Part shown: positions 3,313 to 14,271 of the stretch, one piece after another
Layout of the letters: every line of letters starts with the position of its first letter
How positions within the stretch are numbered: position 1 is the stretch's first letter
IMG/VR virus record: IMGVR_UViG_3300020200_000206
Span: 1 to 22,186 of that record
DNA length: 22,186 nt
From: a virus
Direction: 5' to 3' (one strand)
Position numbers and translations under genes: made by a program
The notes under the pieces: generated by a model
Databases searched by the model: none
What the model saw: only the letters and a program-made list of their open reading frames with translations
What the model was told of the DNA's origin: nothing

Positions 3313-3648
3313 TTAGATTGGATCTTCTTGAATCAACTCTTTTTCCGTGGGCTCAATATCATTAACTAAGAAATTAAATACCTCTTCGATATCGTCCTTT
3401 GATGTTGCAACATGATCTGCTGCCCAGTCGTGTCCGTTTGAAAGAATTTGATCAACCTTTGCTGGATCCATTTGAAGTAGCTGATCAATATTTCTTTTGA
3501 TAGTTTGAAGATTTCCAAAAAACATATAATTTTCTTGGCCCATTTCGTGCTCTTCTTCTTGAGTGTGTGGCTCTTTTTTAAATGGCTGAATCATTGCAGG
3601 CTCAAAATCATCCTGTGTAAATGTTTCAAATGTTTTAATTTTTCTCAT
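3313..3648 (-). CDS. Small conserved phage protein with capsid-tag-like N-terminus, 111 aa
   Basis: The protein begins MRKIKTFETFTQDDFEP; IKTFETF matches the K-[ST]-[FY]-x-x-[FY] motif seen on other proteins of this window. After a Glu-rich linker (EEEHEMGQE) comes a conserved-looking block at about residues 42-95, with FFGNLQTIKRNIDQLL and SNGHDWAADHVATSKDDIEE, a pattern I recall from hypothetical proteins of many environmental phages. No enzyme motif or membrane segment is seen. It is joined to the 538-residue gene upstream by TAA-A-ATG and to the 176-residue gene downstream by TAA-T-ATG. A small virion or head-associated protein is the most likely role; this is inference. Confidence 0.8.
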   Translation of the reverse strand: MRKIKTFETFTQDDFEPAMIQPFKKEPHTQEEEHEMGQENYMFFGNLQTIKRNIDQLLQMDPAKVDQILSNGHDWAADHVATSKDDIEEVFNFLVNDIEPTEKELIQEDPI

Positions 3649-5903: not shown

Positions 5904-8798
5904 TTATTCTTGGTTTTGAGGTAGGAACGAATCCATATTGAGGTCTATTCCCAATAAAGAGTCCGAGGAAGTTGATTTGGCTCTAATATTGTTGGCCTGC
6001 CCAACTTTAAAGTATTTAAGTTGGTCGTCTGTGATCTTGCCATTAATTAAAATGTAGTCTCCGGTGTGCTTATTTACAGCCATAAAGTATTTACCGTCCT
6101 CTAAATATCTGTCAAACTCAATTTTAAGCACCCCATCTAGGTAGGCTTTATTATTAAATACCCCCTCGTCGCTAATTGCTAAATTAAAAGTCTGGATAAG
6201 CTCAGCCCGATAGTTTTTATAAATTAAGTTAAAGCCACTGGCTAAAATATCAACAACCTCGGCCTTGGATGAAGCTTTAACCGCGGCTTCGATTCCCTGA
6301 CTAAAATATTCTTTTCTGGGTTTATCGGATGCCGTTGGGGTAAAGCTTGATGAATCATCTAAATATTCCGGAATGGGATGTTCTGCCTCTTTAAATAGGT
6401 CAGAAAGACCTTTTCTAATATAGTTTCCAGCGTCCGCGCCCAGTCCAGTTCCGCTCTGTCCAGTTAATCTAAAATTGTCGCCGCTCGATTTAAGTTCAAT
6501 CGAATCCGATCCAATTTTAATGTCTCCCTTTGTACGATTATCTGCATTTACTGCATCTTTAATTAAGATTGAGATTAAAATTTCACCGCGACCAATATTT
6601 ACATTACCGACTGATCCAATTAGATTGAAAAGAGAATCATATAGTTCTGGCTTAAGCCCGGTACTCTTAAAGAGAGTTTTCAAATTGCCGCTTGCGGTTG
6701 AGGTAAGATCTGTCAGTGTAAGAGTCGGTGTTTGAAGATATATCATTAGGTCATCATCTTGATCAAGTTCATCTGCAAGTGCAACAATTGTTTTTGCAAG
6801 ATCTTTCCAGCCTTTAGTCTTTGATAAAAACTCAGTTAAATCATTAGTATTATCTTTGTGAGTTTTCTTTAAAAGTTTTTCAATCTTTTTATAGATCTTT
6901 TCATTATAGGGTGCATCAATAATCAAATCAAGTAGATCCGTTTTCTTTTTCTCAAGTTCTTCAACCGAAATTGACTCAGTCAATAGGGATTCTTCAATCT
7001 CCTTTGTCATATTATAAAATTCGGAATGCAATGGTTTGCTAGTTAAGTTCTTATAGAGAACAAAATCTTGATCCTTTACTGATTTAATTAGATCGCCTTC
7101 AAATTCGATTTTTGGAACTTCTACCACCTTTAATTGTGAAGGGATTTTAGCATACGGTGCTCTTTTATTGATTCGCTTTAGATCAATTACAAGATCTGGT
7201 ATAAATTCTGGATTTGTTGCAACGGCTTTGATTGAATAGCCCTGGCCAACTGCAGAAATTAATTCATCGATTCCAACTGAATCAACGGTAGATCCGCCAA
7301 CTACATAATCAGAAGTTTTTGCCAATCTATCAATTGACCCCTTAACCGTTTCCAGTGTCATTGGAAAAGCCGAACTTCGTTGGCCGGGATGGTACGCTAC
7401 CATTAAACAGGCTGCATCGTACTTGCCCTTAATATTAGCTGCAATTTTTTCGTGCTCTTTGCTTAGCGGTTGAAACTTGTCTAAATAAACAACGACCTCA
7501 ATTTCTTTTTTTTTATTTTGGTCCGCTTGAAACTGACTAAAAAAGTCAGTGGCATCCTCATCAGTTCCAAAAAATTGATTAAAGGTCGGAAAAAATGATT
7601 CGTTTAATTTGTCCTCTGCGGCAAGCTGCACTTTGGCAATTTGATTTTTTAGAGTCTCTTTCATAGTCTTATTAAAGAATGTTGAGCTAACTCTAATGTT
7701 TTTCTTTCTAAAAGTATTTAAAAAAACTCTATAAAGTTCTTTAAGGGTTTTATCTGAATCAATTAACTTAATAATAATATCGTCATTAATTAGTTCGCGG
7801 TTAACATCAAATTCTGGTTTATTTAAAAATTCGGGTGTGGTAATTTCAAGACCACGGTATTTTGCTCCATACTCTTGCACAAAATCCTTAAAGATGGCAT
7901 TAATTATTTGAATATATCTCTTTTCAAACGTTTTTCCATCGGGTTTAATTGCACTAAGATCTGCCTGCGAATAGGTTTCAATAAAATTCATTAGATCGGC
8001 TGTCATAATCCAAATATAATCATCTGTCTTAGGCGCCTCGACTCTGGCTTGAGCCTTTTCTTTTGCTCTTGCTTGGAACACTGGGTCAACGAGTTTTGCT
8101 AAAAATACTGAATCTTCACCACTGGGTTCGTAAAATCTAAAAACAATCCCCTCAATATCTTTGTCTGCCGTATCTCTTAAGAATGAAGTTTTCAATTCTG
8201 GGTTTAGGACATTAATAATATATTTAGTAAAAGAAGCAGTCTTAAATTTTCCAACCAATTCATCTAATGGAGTATAGACAAAATCAAGAATTTTTTCTCG
8301 CTGATCGTCAGTAAGTTTACCCTGAAAAATAATTGGCGGCCTTTCAATTTCTAAAATATCTGCCCATTTGTCGAGTTCAGCTTTATCTTGAATAGTTTCT
8401 GAAGGCTCTCCGCTTTGGTCTAACTTATGGATATAACTCAAAATAAGGTGATTCTTTGGAAGTCTATCATATTGAATTGACTGAGCAGTTGGCGAGCTAA
8501 AATACTCCATGCCAAAGTGATAATTGCATGGTAATTTTTCAATCGTCTCTGTCGAAATTGAATCAAAATGCTTTAGCGCCGGATTATAATATGAACTTAG
8601 GACACGGTCAACTCCAGTCAACTTAGTATTACGCTTAAAAAAGTCAAAGGGTTCTTCGCTGTTTCCACAGTTTCTTTGCGCACCAAAAAATGCACCGTCC
8701 ATTTTTTCATTAACGATCACCTCTTTGTTAAGTAAGGCCTCTAAAAATTCTTTGCCCTTTTTTTCGTAAATATCTTTTAAGTGGTTTAGCCCTGCCAT
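5904..8798 (-). CDS. Ligase / HIGH-type nucleotidyltransferase / PD-(D/E)XK-like fusion protein, 964 aa
   Basis: Three catalytic-looking blocks lie in one frame. (1) Residues about 25-245 resemble the adenylyltransferase core of ATP-dependent RNA/DNA ligases: motif I EKMDG with nucleophile Lys32, motif III FGMEYF (95-100), motif IV IEGIVFR (215-221) and a motif V-like FLAKLVDP (232-239). (2) Residues about 433-565 resemble the NMNAT/cytidylyltransferase fold: VVVYLDKFQPLSKEH (435-449) matches the GxFQPxHxGH signature, but the first His is Ser446 and the Gly is Glu448. (3) Residues about 735-775 have GRGEI, KGDI and IELK, giving Glu739, Asp759 and Glu768-x-Lys770, as in PD-(D/E)XK nucleases. 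Helical linkers separate the blocks. The gene lies 18 bases after the 166-residue gene and downstream of a HAD phosphatase and a P-loop kinase, which suggests nucleic-acid end repair. The ligase call is good; RNA versus DNA substrate and activity of the second and third blocks are open. Confidence 0.8.
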   Translation of the reverse strand: MAGLNHLKDIYEKKGKEFLEALLNKEVIVNEKMDGAFFGAQRNCGNSEEPFDFFKRNTKLTGVDRVLSSYYNPALKHFDSISTETIEKLPCNYHFGMEYFSSPTAQSIQYDRLPKNHLILSYIHKLDQSGEPSETIQDKAELDKWADILEIERPPIIFQGKLTDDQREKILDFVYTPLDELVGKFKTASFTKYIINVLNPELKTSFLRDTADKDIEGIVFRFYEPSGEDSVFLAKLVDPVFQARAKEKAQARVEAPKTDDYIWIMTADLMNFIETYSQADLSAIKPDGKTFEKRYIQIINAIFKDFVQEYGAKYRGLEITTPEFLNKPEFDVNRELINDDIIIKLIDSDKTLKELYRVFLNTFRKKNIRVSSTFFNKTMKETLKNQIAKVQLAAEDKLNESFFPTFNQFFGTDEDATDFFSQFQADQNKKKEIEVVVYLDKFQPLSKEHEKIAANIKGKYDAACLMVAYHPGQRSSAFPMTLETVKGSIDRLAKTSDYVVGGSTVDSVGIDELISAVGQGYSIKAVATNPEFIPDLVIDLKRINKRAPYAKIPSQLKVVEVPKIEFEGDLIKSVKDQDFVLYKNLTSKPLHSEFYNMTKEIEESLLTESISVEELEKKKTDLLDLIIDAPYNEKIYKKIEKLLKKTHKDNTNDLTEFLSKTKGWKDLAKTIVALADELDQDDDLMIYLQTPTLTLTDLTSTASGNLKTLFKSTGLKPELYDSLFNLIGSVGNVNIGRGEILISILIKDAVNADNRTKGDIKIGSDSIELKSSGDNFRLTGQSGTGLGADAGNYIRKGLSDLFKEAEHPIPEYLDDSSSFTPTASDKPRKEYFSQGIEAAVKASSKAEVVDILASGFNLIYKNYRAELIQTFNLAISDEGVFNNKAYLDGVLKIEFDRYLEDGKYFMAVNKHTGDYILINGKITDDQLKYFKVGQANNIRAKSTSSDSLLGIDLNMDSFLPQNQE

Positions 8799-8816
8799 AA
8801 AATCTTACACTGTTGT

Positions 8817-9317
8817 TTAATCTAAACTTCCCAGGTCCCCTGACGACATTGCCTTAGCAAACTCTTGGCCAGCCTTAGAAGAAACGCTTAAATTGAGACC
8901 TTTTAGGAGGCCAGCATCTTCTGGATTTTCTTCAAAATAGGTAATTAAATTAGCAAGATTTACATTTTGATAAGGAATAATTGTTCCCTCTGGAAGTTTC
9001 TTTTCCAGCGCTATGCCTGAAGAATAATCTTTCCATTTTAGGTTCCAGCAATAGAATTTAACCTCTTGCTTCATTTTTGAGGCAAAATAGTGATCAATAT
9101 CTGCCAATCTAGCCTGCACATCAGAAAGATCTGTTTTATACGAAGTCGAGTGACCGTAAATATCTGCCGGTGTACCGATTTCTAAATTATCAGAAGTTAA
9201 GTCAGTCAGTTTGGCTAAAATTTCCATTAGCTCTTTAAAGGGTAAGCCTTTAAGTTCTTTAGGTTCTTCTGCCTCGTTTAGAAATTGTTTAAAATCTCCA
9301 ATAACACGTTTTGTCAT
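8817..9317 (-). CDS. Capsid-tagged small protein in the repair cassette, 166 aa
   Basis: The function is unknown. It begins MTKRVIGDFKQFLNEAEEP; DFKQFLNEA closely resembles the T4 internal-protein tag (YQEFIAEA in IPII/IPIII), including an (L/I)xE site, Leu13-Asn14-Glu15, where a gp21-type prohead protease would cut. The body has no motif that I recognise; residues about 25-95 are helical and 95-130 mixed (KFYCWNLKWKDYSSGIAL). It lies between the kinase (20-base gap, holding an ATAAATA motif) and the ligase fusion (18-base gap). Its position suggests a link to the cassette and its N-terminus suggests entry into the head; both are inferences. Confidence 0.75.
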   Translation of the reverse strand: MTKRVIGDFKQFLNEAEEPKELKGLPFKELMEILAKLTDLTSDNLEIGTPADIYGHSTSYKTDLSDVQARLADIDHYFASKMKQEVKFYCWNLKWKDYSSGIALEKKLPEGTIIPYQNVNLANLITYFEENPEDAGLLKGLNLSVSSKAGQEFAKAMSSGDLGSLD

Positions 9318-9337
9318 GTGATGTTGCCTATTTCTAA

Positions 9338-9937
9338 TTATTTATCCCGAACCAGCTTTTGAATTAAACCGCAGAACCCATCAACCGACTCTTGATCAAA
9401 ATTATTAGTAAAATGGTCAAATGAATTGCCGAGCCGCTCATCTCTAAATCTAAACGGGGTATCTTCAATAAGCCGTTGCATAATTCTTTGCTCGTCTTTA
9501 GACAAAACTAATCCATCCCAAAGGTCTTTTTTGCGAGCGTGATCCTGTTTAAGGTCGTCAAGCGCATCAATAAAAACTGTTTTGCAGTTTTCATAGCCGG
9601 GGCGACTGATTAGGCCACAAAGTTCGGTCTTGGCCCGGTCATAATCTATTCGATTCCATAGGGTTGCCCAAGCGGCTGCCGTAATATGGGCTCGATCAAA
9701 TATAAAGATTTTTTCTGGAAAATGCTTGTGCAGATCAAGAATAGTCATAATATTACCCATGCTAAAATAGTGAATACCCAGGGCAGACTTTTCCCAGTCT
9801 TTAACAATTGCCGAATATTCATCGGCTAAATAAAATTTGTAGTAGAAAAGATTAAGATCGGCACCGTGCTTTTCAATTAGCTGATTTAGCAGATATGTTT
9901 TGCCAGAGTGCCTGGTGCCCTCGATAAAAATAATCAT
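9338..9937 (-). CDS. P-loop kinase, probable polynucleotide or nucleotide kinase, 199 aa
   Basis: Residues 1-20 form strand plus Walker A: MIIFIEGTRHSGKT, with Gly7...Gly12-Lys13-Thr14. A Walker B/DRxH segment is at IFIFDRAH (77-84), as in deoxynucleoside and nucleotide kinases, and a basic lid-like stretch DHARKKD (131-137) follows. This combination fits the P-loop kinase class that includes T4 polynucleotide 5'-kinase, thymidylate kinase and dNMP kinase; sequence alone does not settle the substrate. Its ATG overlaps the stop of the HAD phosphatase gene (ATGA), so the two are coupled. In T4 these activities are fused in Pnkp (PseT) with the kinase first; here they are separate and the phosphatase comes first. 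The pairing favours a polynucleotide 5'-kinase; a dNMP kinase is the main alternative. Confidence 0.75.
   Translation of the reverse strand: MIIFIEGTRHSGKTYLLNQLIEKHGADLNLFYYKFYLADEYSAIVKDWEKSALGIHYFSMGNIMTILDLHKHFPEKIFIFDRAHITAAAWATLWNRIDYDRAKTELCGLISRPGYENCKTVFIDALDDLKQDHARKKDLWDGLVLSKDEQRIMQRLIEDTPFRFRDERLGNSFDHFTNNFDQESVDGFCGLIQKLVRDK
9339..9345 (-). promoter_or_regulatory. Putative late-promoter motif (GATAAATAA)
   Basis: The minus strand reads GGGATAAATAATT, ending 21 bases before the ATG at 9317. The same GATAAATAA with the same 21-base distance precedes the 75-residue core-like gene at 22030. This matches the T4-type late core ATAAATA and would drive the tagged protein and ligase fusion separately from the kinase. 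Confidence 0.45.
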
Positions 9938-10464
9938 GAGTATTTAAGTTGTAGTCTTTCTCTTGATATTATACCAATTTTTTGATTAAGCTGGAGCAGT
10001 TCAGTTTTGTCAACAAACCAGTATTCAACCGAATCAGTAACTTTGGAAAGATATGGATTTTTTATGTATTTGTCTAACTGAACCAGAGAGTCCTCGAATA
10101 TTCTAATCTTATCAAAACTTGGCCCAACTTCATCTAAATATTCAAGGAGAATTTGAGGCTTGTCTAAATCCCTTTCGCCAAGGATAATTTTATCAAATCT
10201 CTTACTAATACCAAACTTATATAAAACTGCCTCCAGTGCCTTTCGTGTTGCTTCAACTCGATGACTTAAAATAATTGTTGTATTTTCTTTATGGAGATGA
10301 TTAAAAACTGTCTCGATAAGCTGCAGCCTATACAAATTTGTATTTAAGGAGTTGGGGCTATCAAACCACGCATAGGGTTTCTTAAATTCTGACCCAGCGT
10401 GGGTAAAGCCCGGAACCCTAAATAGGGTCTCATCAAAATCGACGACGTTTAAAATTTTCTCCAT
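9934..10464 (-). CDS. HAD-superfamily phosphatase, RNA-repair (Swiss-Army-Knife-like) type, 176 aa
   Basis: All four HAD motifs are visible: motif I DFDETLF with Asp9 (nucleophile) and Asp11; motif II ILSHR with Ser67; motif III Lys102 in DKPQ; motif IV IRIFEDS with Glu124-Asp125. The form of motif II followed by FGISKRFDKIILGE and of motif IV resembles the HAD domain family named for Swiss-Army-Knife RNA repair proteins. HAD enzymes of this kind, such as the T4 Pnkp C-terminal domain, remove 3'-phosphates to prepare RNA ends. It is the first gene of the minus-strand run, is divergent from the gene at 10501, and its stop overlaps the kinase start (ATGA). A polynucleotide 3'-phosphatase is the best guess; a nucleotidase is possible. 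Confidence 0.8.
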   Translation of the reverse strand: MEKILNVVDFDETLFRVPGFTHAGSEFKKPYAWFDSPNSLNTNLYRLQLIETVFNHLHKENTTIILSHRVEATRKALEAVLYKFGISKRFDKIILGERDLDKPQILLEYLDEVGPSFDKIRIFEDSLVQLDKYIKNPYLSKVTDSVEYWFVDKTELLQLNQKIGIISRERLQLKYS

Positions 10465-11452: not shown

Positions 11453-13027
11453 ATGAGTTTGTTAAAGTTTAAGTTAACACAAGACAAAAGATATTTTCAA
11501 TTAGTACACAACGACCTTAAAAAAGAATTAGTTGATCTAAAAAACTTTTTTAAAAAGAGGGCAAAGGGCTATCACTTTAGCCCGTTATTTCAGCGGCGGC
11601 TTTGGGACGGATACAATAAATTTATTGACAGAGAAAACCGAATTGGGGTTGGGCTTTGGTATCAAATCCGGCAGTTTGGTCAAATCTATGGACATGAAGT
11701 TGAATTAGAAGGATTGGATGCTCTGCTTAATATGGAGTTTACCAAAGATCAATTAGAGAAATTTGCAAGTGTTCTCCTAGATGGGGTTGATCTTACGCCA
11801 TACGATTATCAAATGGAGGCCGCATACCGGGCTCTTAAGTTTAAATTTAGTGCTCAAGAATTAGCCACCTCTGCCGGTAAAACACTTATCCTATTTCTAT
11901 ATTTAAGTTTCTTAAAGCGCAAAGGCATCATTAACGGTAAGGACAAAAAAGCCCTTATTGTAGTTCCTAATATTTCGCTAGTTGGCCAAACCGCTGAAAA
12001 ATTTGTAAAGGACTATCACACCGGCCTAATTAACTGGAATATTTTAGAAATTGGCGGTAAAAACAAATATTCTGATAAGAAATTTGAAGATGCCGATTTA
12101 GTCATTTCAACCTATCAAAGTTTAGCCAAACGGGATGGCGATTTCTTTAAGAAGTTTACTGTACTTTGTGTCGATGAGTGTCATACTTCAAGGGGAGACA
12201 CAATTAAGGATGTTCTCTTAGCTTCAACTAATGTTGAATATAAATTAGGACTCTCTGGTACAATTCAAGTCGATGAGGATTTTTCAGACTTCTACAAAAT
12301 TCAAGAATATATTGGTCCGCTAAGTATGACCCTAAAATCAAGTTTCTTAATTGAAAACAACCACTCTCCTGATGTTTTTATTAAAATGCTTTCGCTAAAA
12401 TATCCAGAGAACGAGCCGTTTATTCAAAACTACCGATATATGCAGGAGCACGGTAAAAGCCAGTTTCACAGAATTGAAGACTATGGTAAAAACATGTTTC
12501 AAATGGAAAAGGATTTTATTATTTCGTATGAACCCCGAGTAGATTTTATCTCAACCCTTGTTCAAAAACTTGGCGGCAACTCCCTTATTCTTTTTATTAA
12601 TGTAAAAGACAAATACGGCCAGCGCATTAAGGAAAAAATCACCGAATGGAATCCCAATTCATTCTATATTGACGGCGAAGTAAGCGGTGATGATCGGGCA
12701 GAATACAAAGAGGCGATGGAGGCTGGGTCTAATGTGGCACTTGTTGCAAGCTATGCAACCTTTGCAACTGGAATTGACCTAAAAAACGTACAAAATATTA
12801 TCTTTGCTGAAAGCTATAAATCTGAAATTACGGTTAGACAGGCGGTGGGTAGAGGAATGCGTAAGCTTGCTGGAAAACACAAAGTAACAATCTACGATCT
12901 TATTGATGATCTAAATGGTTATATTGTAAAACACGGTAAAGTTAGAGAAAAAATTTATGAAAAAGAAAAGTGGGTTATCACAAAACACACTTATGATTTA
13001 AGTAAATTTATTAAGCAAGATTCTTAA
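11453..13027 (+). CDS. uvsW: UvsW-type superfamily 2 ATP-dependent helicase, 524 aa
   Basis: Clear SF2 helicase motifs: PYDYQ (116-120), Walker A ATSAGKT (138-144), DECH (241-244), GLSGT (266-270) and motif VI QAVGRGMRK (463-471). UvsW unwinds branched DNA and R-loops and helps T4 switch from origin to recombination-dependent replication. The length (about 500 in T4) and the N-terminal region with FSPLFQRRLWDGYNKF agree. I chose ATG at 11453, 10 bases after the preceding stop; an upstream TTG at 11414 would overlap the UvsY-like gene by 29 bases and adds a sequence unlike the family. The 3' end overlaps the tail of the opposite-strand GNAT gene by 17 bases. Confidence 0.93.
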   Translation: MSLLKFKLTQDKRYFQLVHNDLKKELVDLKNFFKKRAKGYHFSPLFQRRLWDGYNKFIDRENRIGVGLWYQIRQFGQIYGHEVELEGLDALLNMEFTKDQLEKFASVLLDGVDLTPYDYQMEAAYRALKFKFSAQELATSAGKTLILFLYLSFLKRKGIINGKDKKALIVVPNISLVGQTAEKFVKDYHTGLINWNILEIGGKNKYSDKKFEDADLVISTYQSLAKRDGDFFKKFTVLCVDECHTSRGDTIKDVLLASTNVEYKLGLSGTIQVDEDFSDFYKIQEYIGPLSMTLKSSFLIENNHSPDVFIKMLSLKYPENEPFIQNYRYMQEHGKSQFHRIEDYGKNMFQMEKDFIISYEPRVDFISTLVQKLGGNSLILFINVKDKYGQRIKEKITEWNPNSFYIDGEVSGDDRAEYKEAMEAGSNVALVASYATFATGIDLKNVQNIIFAESYKSEITVRQAVGRGMRKLAGKHKVTIYDLIDDLNGYIVKHGKVREKIYEKEKWVITKHTYDLSKFIKQDS

Positions 13028-14222
13028 CTAAAAGATCTTTTATTCCAGTTGAATCGCATGGCCTATAACCAAATCCAGCACATAGATTTTGAGCAACCGT
13101 ATTATCACAATTTGTAATTAATAGAATATGGGACATGCCATTAGCCTTTGCAATTTCATGACACTTTTGTAGTAGCTGCTTGCTTAAACCCTGACCTCTA
13201 TATTCAGGTTCAACTCCCATGCTGTGGAGATAATATGTATTATCATTAGTAAAAGGCCCAGCGTCTCTATTTAAAAAATCAACCAGATCTGGATCAAAAT
13301 CATTTGAATTTGAATTATCCAAATTTATTATTCCAACTACCCCTGCTTCTTTATCGCCATTACTTAGTGCAATCCTAATGCCTGATTCAGAATTAGCATC
13401 TCCTTCAGTTTTAATAACAAATGATGAATGGTTCTCAGAGAGGTGACCATCCGAAACCTCTTCCTGAATAAAATCTAGAAAATACTTTTCAGCATTTTTT
13501 ACAAATTCACGGTGTTGTCTTTGAATAGCTCTAAGATCCTCCTCAATTTGTATAAGATTTCTAATTTCTGCATCTAACCACTCGGTTACGCTCCTTAACT
13601 TATTAACAATGACAGTAACAGATTCTTCGTCTTCAACTAAACCTAAATCAGAAAGTCGCTGCCACTCTGGATTATCAATTGCTTTGCCAATCTCCGCCAA
13701 GTCTTCTTCATCAAATTCTTCTCTAGTGTCTAAATAATCCTGAATCTCTTCTTCTGCTTTTTCTAATAATTGGTCCGCGCCATTGTCTGGATAGATATGA
13801 ATCCAGCCGCCGCTGTTTCCACCCCATGAAATATTATCAACCCAGCGATAAGACTCTTTAATATCCTCTTCAAACATTTCGGCTTGATCTTGTAACCATC
13901 TATACCAAATATCACTAAGTCTCTCATCATCAAGGCCAACACCGGTTAAAGCTTTTACTTTTTCGACTGATGGCCAAACGTGAACTTTTACATTTAGTGC
14001 AAAGTAGTCTCCGTTATATCTACCGTAACTTTGACCTCTATTTAAATTCCAATTATCTGAAAATGTTGAATCGACTTGGCGCTCAAGCGCGTCCAATGCG
14101 TCCAATACCCTTTTTTCGAGGTTAAATGATGACATCTTACCTGAATAAAAGGCAGTTAGAGAATTATTATTCTGCTTTGGATAGTCTCTACTAAAATTTT
14201 CAAATAATTTAATATGCTTCAT
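13011..14222 (-). CDS. GNAT N-acetyltransferase domain protein with capsid-tag-like N-terminus, 403 aa
   Basis: The C-terminal 140 residues form a GNAT fold: a strand YYLHSMGVEPEYRGQGLSKQLL (331-351) holds motif A with Arg342-Gly-Gln-Gly-Leu-Ser, followed by HILLITNCDNTVAQNLCAGFGY (365-386). GNAT enzymes move an acyl group from coenzyme A to an amine; the substrate is unknown. Residues 30-270 are a long acidic, helical region without known domain. I chose ATG at 14222, giving MKHIKLFENFSRDY, which resembles the other capsid-tag-like N-termini here; a TTG at 14240 would add six residues. Upstream genes are unknown, and the 3' end overlaps the UvsW gene tail to tail. A virion-delivered acetyltransferase is a guess; a virion or host-modifying enzyme is also possible. 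Confidence 0.8.
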   Translation of the reverse strand: MKHIKLFENFSRDYPKQNNNSLTAFYSGKMSSFNLEKRVLDALDALERQVDSTFSDNWNLNRGQSYGRYNGDYFALNVKVHVWPSVEKVKALTGVGLDDERLSDIWYRWLQDQAEMFEEDIKESYRWVDNISWGGNSGGWIHIYPDNGADQLLEKAEEEIQDYLDTREEFDEEDLAEIGKAIDNPEWQRLSDLGLVEDEESVTVIVNKLRSVTEWLDAEIRNLIQIEEDLRAIQRQHREFVKNAEKYFLDFIQEEVSDGHLSENHSSFVIKTEGDANSESGIRIALSNGDKEAGVVGIINLDNSNSNDFDPDLVDFLNRDAGPFTNDNTYYLHSMGVEPEYRGQGLSKQLLQKCHEIAKANGMSHILLITNCDNTVAQNLCAGFGYRPCDSTGIKDLLVKNLA

Positions 14223-14271
14223 TAGTTCTTGATTTAGCAATTAATCACATCTGTAATACCTACAGTAATTA

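Follow-up and report, generated by a model that had tools for sequence, protein, structure and literature searches.

Enzymes with which phages repair nucleic-acid ends are standard laboratory reagents, and they mark the presence of RNases that hosts direct against phages. In phage T4 Pnkp (PseT) and Rnl1 follow the logic of 5′ kinase, 3′ phosphatase and ATP-dependent ligase, while in Clostridium thermocellum Pnkp a kinase, a phosphatase of the metallophosphoesterase type and a ligase are joined in one chain. Standalone HAD phosphatases of the Swiss Army Knife (SAK) type in jumbo phages have been described as linear phosphatases and as partners of ATP-dependent RNA ligases (Iyer et al. 2021, PMC7824862). 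Here we analyse a cassette of four genes, coding for a HAD phosphatase, a P-loop kinase, a small tagged protein and a ligase fusion, on a stretch of 22,186 nt (IMG/VR record IMGVR_UViG_3300020200_000206, positions 1 to 22,186; the window in the following). The window is a fragment of the genome of an uncultured tailed phage, and its sequence is identical to IMG/VR contig 3300020214_000081. We read the cassette as a heal-and-seal operon that is conserved in large T4-like phages and distinct from the repair module in their tRNA arrays, and put the probability of this reading at roughly one half.

The four open reading frames (ORFs) that had been proposed from the letters of the window were all found on the minus strand, exactly where they had been placed:

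9934 to 10464, minus strand: HAD phosphatase of 176 aa, similar to HAD_SAK_1, the SAK RNA-repair HAD family (profile matches of homologues, invariant catalytic residues)
9338 to 9937, minus strand: P-loop kinase of 199 aa with deoxynucleoside/thymidylate-kinase fold (AlphaFold 2 model, fold and profile matches)
8817 to 9317, minus strand: protein of 166 aa with the N-terminal capsid-targeting-like tag FKQFLNE (tag pattern in homologues)
5904 to 8798, minus strand: fusion of 964 aa combining Rnl2-like RNA ligase, NMNAT fold (nicotinamide mononucleotide adenylyltransferase) and a PD-(D/E)xK-like part (Pfam, Foldseek and pattern)

The HAD and kinase genes overlap by ATGA, and the close spacing of the following genes was also predicted correctly, with gaps of 20 nt between the kinase and the 166-aa gene and 18 nt between the latter and the ligase gene. 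Twelve close relatives, mostly with 75–94% amino-acid identity over the four proteins, retain the genes (L008 begins at the ligase). Every part of the cassette is under purifying selection, with ratios of nonsynonymous to synonymous substitution (dN/dS) of 0.03–0.14 against the close relatives at dS near saturation. The lowest values were found for the ligase domain (0.03–0.04), and the tail of the 964-aa protein reached 0.12–0.14, again with dS near saturation. In L012 (8913–9335) the ligase gene is broken across reading frames into pieces of 77–92% identity, which reflects either a frameshift or an assembly error.

PDB, PHROGs and NCBIfam yielded little when searched with the four proteins as single sequences, and profile searches were needed. 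Viral contigs were scanned with profiles from the ligase, kinase and HAD alignments, which gave relatives down to ~30% identity; counts of conservation are based on 51 kinase sequences with pairwise identities <95%. The ligase gene is located downstream of the kinase on the same strand, within ~630 nt, in all 50 judgeable loci (L195 is cut off too early to be judged). The HAD gene is located upstream of the kinase in 48 of 50, with L183 left out for its late start. In L190 and L194 sequence is available upstream of the kinase, but a HAD was undetectable in it; the ligases of these two loci show odd versions of motif I, NKKTDG and NENING. The commonest junction between HAD and kinase across the relatives is the same 4-nt ATGA overlap as in the window. 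Because the gene order recurs in relatives to ~30% identity, the arrangement is not due to chance. The 166-aa protein is present in 36 of the 51 distinct loci; in the others it is absent or a different tagged protein takes its place. The core of the cassette is therefore HAD-kinase-ligase. The expectation that the genes stay together in related phages is thus borne out for these three.

The ligase-domain tree places all cassette-bearing proteins in a single clade with a support of 100, which requires one change. The HAD-kinase pair therefore joined the ligase once, and the cassette has one origin; protein families, motifs, linkage and this single origin are established at the level of sequence. 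We also considered whether the presence of HAD and kinase drives retention of the ligase lysine. As the cassette arose only once, the tree offers one independent pair, which is no test of such an association, and the idea was dropped. A tblastn search of 50,697 phage records with HAD and kinase gave zero matches; a cultured host is accordingly not known, and every relative with HAD and kinase is metagenomic. One contig of 254 kb (L288, CAIWBA010000291.1) carries HAD, kinase and ligase with the same neighbours and was binned in a metagenome-assembled genome of Bacteroidetes. It may be a misbinned phage genome and gives a weak hint at hosts.

The prediction of a HAD phosphatase of the RNA-repair type is supported by the homologues. 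All 47 distinct complete sequences share the motif residues D9/D11/T13, R69, K102 and E/D124-D125 without exception, Pfam HAD_SAK_1 (PF10307) matches 6 of 11 diverse homologues (best 7.9e-9), and one HAD exceeded the PF10307 cut-off in the genome search. The 5′-nucleotidase profile matched weakly (0.019, two members). The profile phrog_415, annotated as polynucleotide kinase, matched 8 of 11 HADs; since 10 of 14 bacteria and archaea searched as controls gave matches as well, it was discarded as evidence for a polynucleotide kinase.

The Walker A motif GK[TS] and the DR that had been reported for the kinase are invariant in 51 of 51 distinct sequences, whereas the histidine of the proposed DRxH is not conserved (DR[SAC][IH]). 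The original prediction of a Pnkp-like enzyme was not supported. The AlphaFold 2 model of the kinase (predicted local distance difference test 80, predicted template modelling score 0.80) superimposed on a thymidylate kinase (TMK) structure with Z 17.0 and a root-mean-square deviation (rmsd) of 2.6 over 178 residues, and on a deoxycytidine kinase (dCK) structure with Z 14.7 (Foldseek, VIA-align). Among the fold matches listed TMK structures make up almost the whole, followed by dCK and a single adenylate kinase. When PDB sequences were searched with the kinase profile, deoxynucleoside kinases (dNK) ranked first (3.3e-5). AAA_33 (PF13671), the Pnkp-type family, matched 0 of 13 members at E up to 0.1, while other kinases in the same genomes match it at up to 3.5e-13. 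Thymidylate_kin (PF02223) matched 4 of 13 members, best 0.0015 and all under the curated cut-off, and AAA_28, which covers NadR kinase domains, matched 9 of 13 (best 1.9e-5). The invariant motifs YYKF, HYFS and DR are specific to the family, the first two being unlike the known acceptor motifs of TMK and dNK. By sequence and model, the enzyme belongs with the dNK and TMK folds, and by sequence it is not of the Pnkp type. Deoxynucleoside kinases phosphorylate the 5′-OH of a nucleoside, which is chemistry identical to 5′ healing, and for this reason a polynucleotide 5′-OH would by analogy be a chemically easy change of acceptor for a kinase of this fold.

These results bear on the chief rival explanation, in which kinase and HAD are a nucleotide-metabolism pair (a nucleoside or deoxynucleoside-monophosphate kinase and a nucleotidase) that lies beside a ligase-like gene by accident. 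The best folds and the dNK and TMK profile matches of the kinase favour this explanation, as does the lack of any other thymidylate kinase in the large relatives, where zero proteins in ten large contigs exceeded the PF02223 cut-off. However, the kinase itself stays under that cut-off and shows YYKF and HYFS where TMK and dNK have their acceptor motifs, the HAD resembles the RNA-repair family much more than the 5′-nucleotidases, and HAD, kinase and ligase remain linked through deep divergence. Matches to nucleotide kinases and nucleotidases in an unconserved neighbourhood had been named in advance as speaking against end repair; the half of this that concerns the kinase applies, as its nearest matches are nucleoside and nucleotide kinases, but the HAD matches nucleotidases only weakly and the neighbourhood is conserved. 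We consider a role in nucleotide metabolism unlikely, although it is the most serious of the alternatives.

In the 964-aa protein ligase motifs I, III, IV and V are all present, as predicted, and ligase, NMNAT fold and tail are combined in one chain, in agreement with the proposed multi-domain sealing protein:

7599 to 8798, minus strand: ligase domain, residues 1–400, with motif I K32 (codon within 8694–8708), III E98, IV E216 and V K235
6981 to 7505, minus strand: NMNAT/cytidylyltransferase-fold domain, residues 432–606, with degenerate (H/T)xGH (SKEH) and without ISSTxxR
6489 to 6593, minus strand: putative PD-(D/E)xK-like signature GRGE ... GDIKIGSDSIELK, residues 736–770, suggested by the pattern only

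PF09414 is over its cut-off in the window protein (29 bits versus 27, E 1.4e-6) and matches 20 of 28 members of the ligase family. T4 Rnl2 (2hvr) was the top Foldseek match (8.4e-7), with fungal Trl1 and trypanosome REL1 also among the top folds; superposition of the whole model on Rnl2 was poor (template modelling score, TM, 0.41, rmsd 22 over the whole alignment). Motif I of the window is E-K32-M-D-G. Among 50 distinct cassette ligases K32 is kept in 47, the acidic residue of motif III in 47, that of motif IV in 45 and the lysine of motif V in 50.

Other repair genes were sought in eight large cassette-bearing contigs of 114–271 kb (G001–G008, G003 and G004 being near-identical). Each holds between 6 and 35 tRNAs, and an ATP-dependent DNA ligase is over the cut-off in six of the eight (G001, G003–G007). 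A second RNA ligase, with 358–400 aa and motif I KIHGTN or KMDGS where read, is found together with an AAA_33 kinase of 134–158 aa in or beside the tRNA arrays of seven contigs, and G007 is without the pair. The two genes are adjacent in five contigs and ~9 kb apart in two. Conventional pairs of RNA ligase and AAA_33 kinase in the tRNA arrays of cassette-bearing phages are located at:

L281, 6597 to 8190
L282, 6653 to 8196
L283, 6533 to 8029
L284, 10617 to 12423

As the window itself is a fragment, coexistence with this second repair set was seen in close relatives (contigs of L007 and L010). The module of AAA_33 kinase and RNA ligase is a closer analogue of T4 tRNA repair than the cassette. 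The T4-style role in tRNA repair that had been proposed for the cassette is weakened, because a conventional kinase-ligase pair is already present inside the tRNA arrays of close relatives. Since these genomes hold tRNAs, AAA_33 kinase and RNA ligase and mostly an ATP-dependent DNA ligase, a second role is needed for the cassette, which looks like a second, non-redundant system for healing and sealing of ends beside recombination and replication genes rather than a tRNA-repair module.

The position of the cassette could also point to DNA-end repair tied to recombination, in which it would process and seal DNA breaks with the adjoining UvsW/UvsY-like proteins. In relatives it adjoins uvsW, a weak UvsY-like gene (phrog_231, 0.041), pol and primase, the ligase gene holds the same place in phages that lack HAD and kinase, and the possible PD-(D/E)xK tail would fit as well. 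Nevertheless, sequence and fold of the ligase point to RNA ligases, HAD_SAK is an RNA-repair family, and most of the cassette-bearing contigs have the DNA ligase elsewhere. We regard this explanation as somewhat less probable again than nucleotide metabolism, and slightly favour RNA over DNA as substrate of the cassette.

Several observations weigh against a heal-and-seal function. The window's own HAD has no HAD_SAK_1 match at E up to 1; the matches are those of its homologues. The kinase resembles nucleoside and nucleotide kinases and no known polynucleotide kinase. The block from pol to uvsW around the cassette, including the uvsY-like gene, is syntenic too, and for this reason the linkage is in part general synteny and is by itself no proof of shared function. 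In the ligase, the second lysine of motif V is absent family-wide, with LAK[LMI][VIM]DP in 50 of 50 sequences (LAKLVDP in the window) and not KxK. Three of the 50 cassette ligases lost Lys32, two of which retain the HAD (L163, L196), and many homologues outside the cassette clade are without the motif I lysine (L014–L018, L058, L060, L076–L117), so part of the ligase family works without ligation. The ligase-like protein of the cassette could therefore be non-catalytic, with a structural or regulatory function, as must be the case for its relatives without the lysine in the largest phages, and the single motif V lysine would agree with this. We consider this improbable, since 47 of 50 cassettes retain the lysine of motif I and constraint in the window clade is strongest on the ligase domain.

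In the largest phages (634–735 kb records) and their relatives, L015–L018 and L076–L117, the ligase homologue has 425–494 aa and the motif EDIQGSK and is without the lysines of motifs I and V. From its sequence this protein is a probable conserved pseudo-ligase.

The second domain of the fusion superimposed on archaeal NMNAT 1f9a with Z 15.4 and an rmsd of 2.6 over 151 residues (residues 434–605), with NadR among the matches, and CTP_transf_like was found in 13 of 28 members of the ligase family (best 9.3e-9). Cassette members mostly keep (H/T)xGH, the arginine of ISSTxxR is missing in all that were read at that site, and the window clade additionally lost HxGH. The motifs are more intact in relatives without HAD and kinase (L014, L055, L060, L074). 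In the window clade the domain is degenerate and probably acts as a binding or scaffolding part. NAD metabolism by a NadR-like split route (the kinase as nicotinamide riboside kinase, the NMNAT domain as NAD synthase and the HAD as NMN phosphatase) would find support in the fold and in the AAA_28 matches, but with these losses, and with intact motifs mainly where kinase and HAD are absent, it is the least probable of all explanations. For the tail, library searches were unmatched and the structure model was poor; the pattern GxGE...GD...IExK, common to the window protein and L150, L153, L156 and L158, suggests a PD-(D/E)xK nuclease in some members.

The tag FKQFLNE or an equivalent ([FY]xx[FY][ILVM]x[ED]) is present in 32 of 36 distinct homologues of the 166-aa protein; its hallmark is a pair of N-terminal aromatic residues at a spacing of 3 and, next to it, (I/L/V)xE. 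Residues 4 and 7 of the T4 capsid-targeting sequence govern targeting and residues 8 and 10 processing (PMC9026906), and the tag agrees with the sequence described there. N-terminal tags are enriched in these loci, with 50 tagged ORFs versus a shuffled mean of 3 (all ORFs of at least 150 aa), and a T4 gp21-type prohead protease gene (PF03420) is found in 9 of 10 contigs. Family and PDB searches with the 166-aa protein gave zero family matches and no convincing PDB match. Judged by its tag, the protein may be packaged in the virion and injected as an early partner of the cassette.

Two other proteins of the window, encoded at 3313–3648 and 13011–14240, begin with weaker tag-like sequences, MRKIKTFETFTQD and MKHIKLFENFSRD, respectively, and in the latter the tag-like start precedes a GNAT acetyltransferase domain. 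These starts suggest further packaged proteins. In phages without HAD and kinase a protein of ~420 aa is encoded directly upstream of the ligase gene (L014, 10704–11969; L060, 6714–7988; L071, 6540–7811). It combines a capsid-targeting-like N-terminus with the ligase-like motifs EK[TL]DG, EG[IL]VF and YKLTG, and a homologue in Microcystis phage Mel-JY01 is annotated as 'cytidylyltransferase like protein'. It may be a virion-packaged nucleotidyltransferase.

For the heal-and-seal operon we infer substrate, order of reactions, partnership and packaging as follows. The 166-aa protein would be packaged in the capsid and injected as an early partner. The SAK-type HAD would strip the terminal 3′ phosphate, and a 2′,3′-cyclic end would need prior opening by another enzyme. 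The dNK/TMK-fold kinase would phosphorylate the terminal 5′-OH, and the Rnl2-like domain would auto-adenylylate on Lys32, transfer AMP to the 5′ phosphate and seal. In the window clade the NMNAT-fold domain would serve as a non-catalytic binding or scaffolding part, and in members with a PD-(D/E)xK-like tail this part may trim ends. In a bolder and rather doubtful extension, the kinase would represent a new class of polynucleotide 5′-kinases on the dNK/TMK fold. Together with the SAK HAD and the NMNAT-fused ligase it would give large phages a second pathway of healing and sealing, set off by a partner that is delivered with the capsid, for breaks that the tRNA-array module leaves. If a second pathway exists, it would imply a class of host-inflicted damage, or a processing of phage nucleic acids, beyond the known Pnkp-Rnl route, and the ~50 homologues are a ready set for asking whether nucleoside-kinase folds act on polynucleotide ends.

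Comparison with the known systems shows similarities to each of them. With T4 Rnl2 the cassette ligase shares the PF09414 domain, motif I EKxDG and the best Foldseek match, but it differs by its one motif V lysine, its long extra domains and the poor superposition of the whole model. As in Clostridium thermocellum Pnkp, three activities are united, here predicted ones, although in separate genes and with kinase and phosphatase from other superfamilies. The jumbo-phage RNA-repair sets have in common with our phages a standalone SAK-type HAD, an Rnl2-type ligase, many tRNAs and a large genome, while the dNK/TMK-like kinase and the NMNAT-ligase fusion are absent from the passages of the survey that we consulted, and the cassette-bearing genomes hold a conventional repair set in addition (PMC7824862). 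Protein WWT39297.1 of Microcystis phage Mel-JY01 likewise pairs a region annotated as cytidylyltransferase with a ligase-like region; its ligase-like part belongs to the different 420-aa family, and HAD and kinase are not annotated beside it. T4 Pnkp and Rnl1 share with the cassette the logic of the three activities and the presence of HAD and P-loop domains beside a ligase. In the cassette, however, healing is split into two genes with the phosphatase first, the kinase is of the dNK/TMK type, and the Rnl2-like ligase is fused to an NMNAT-fold domain and accompanied by a tagged partner, in line with the architecture unlike that of T4 that the original prediction had described.

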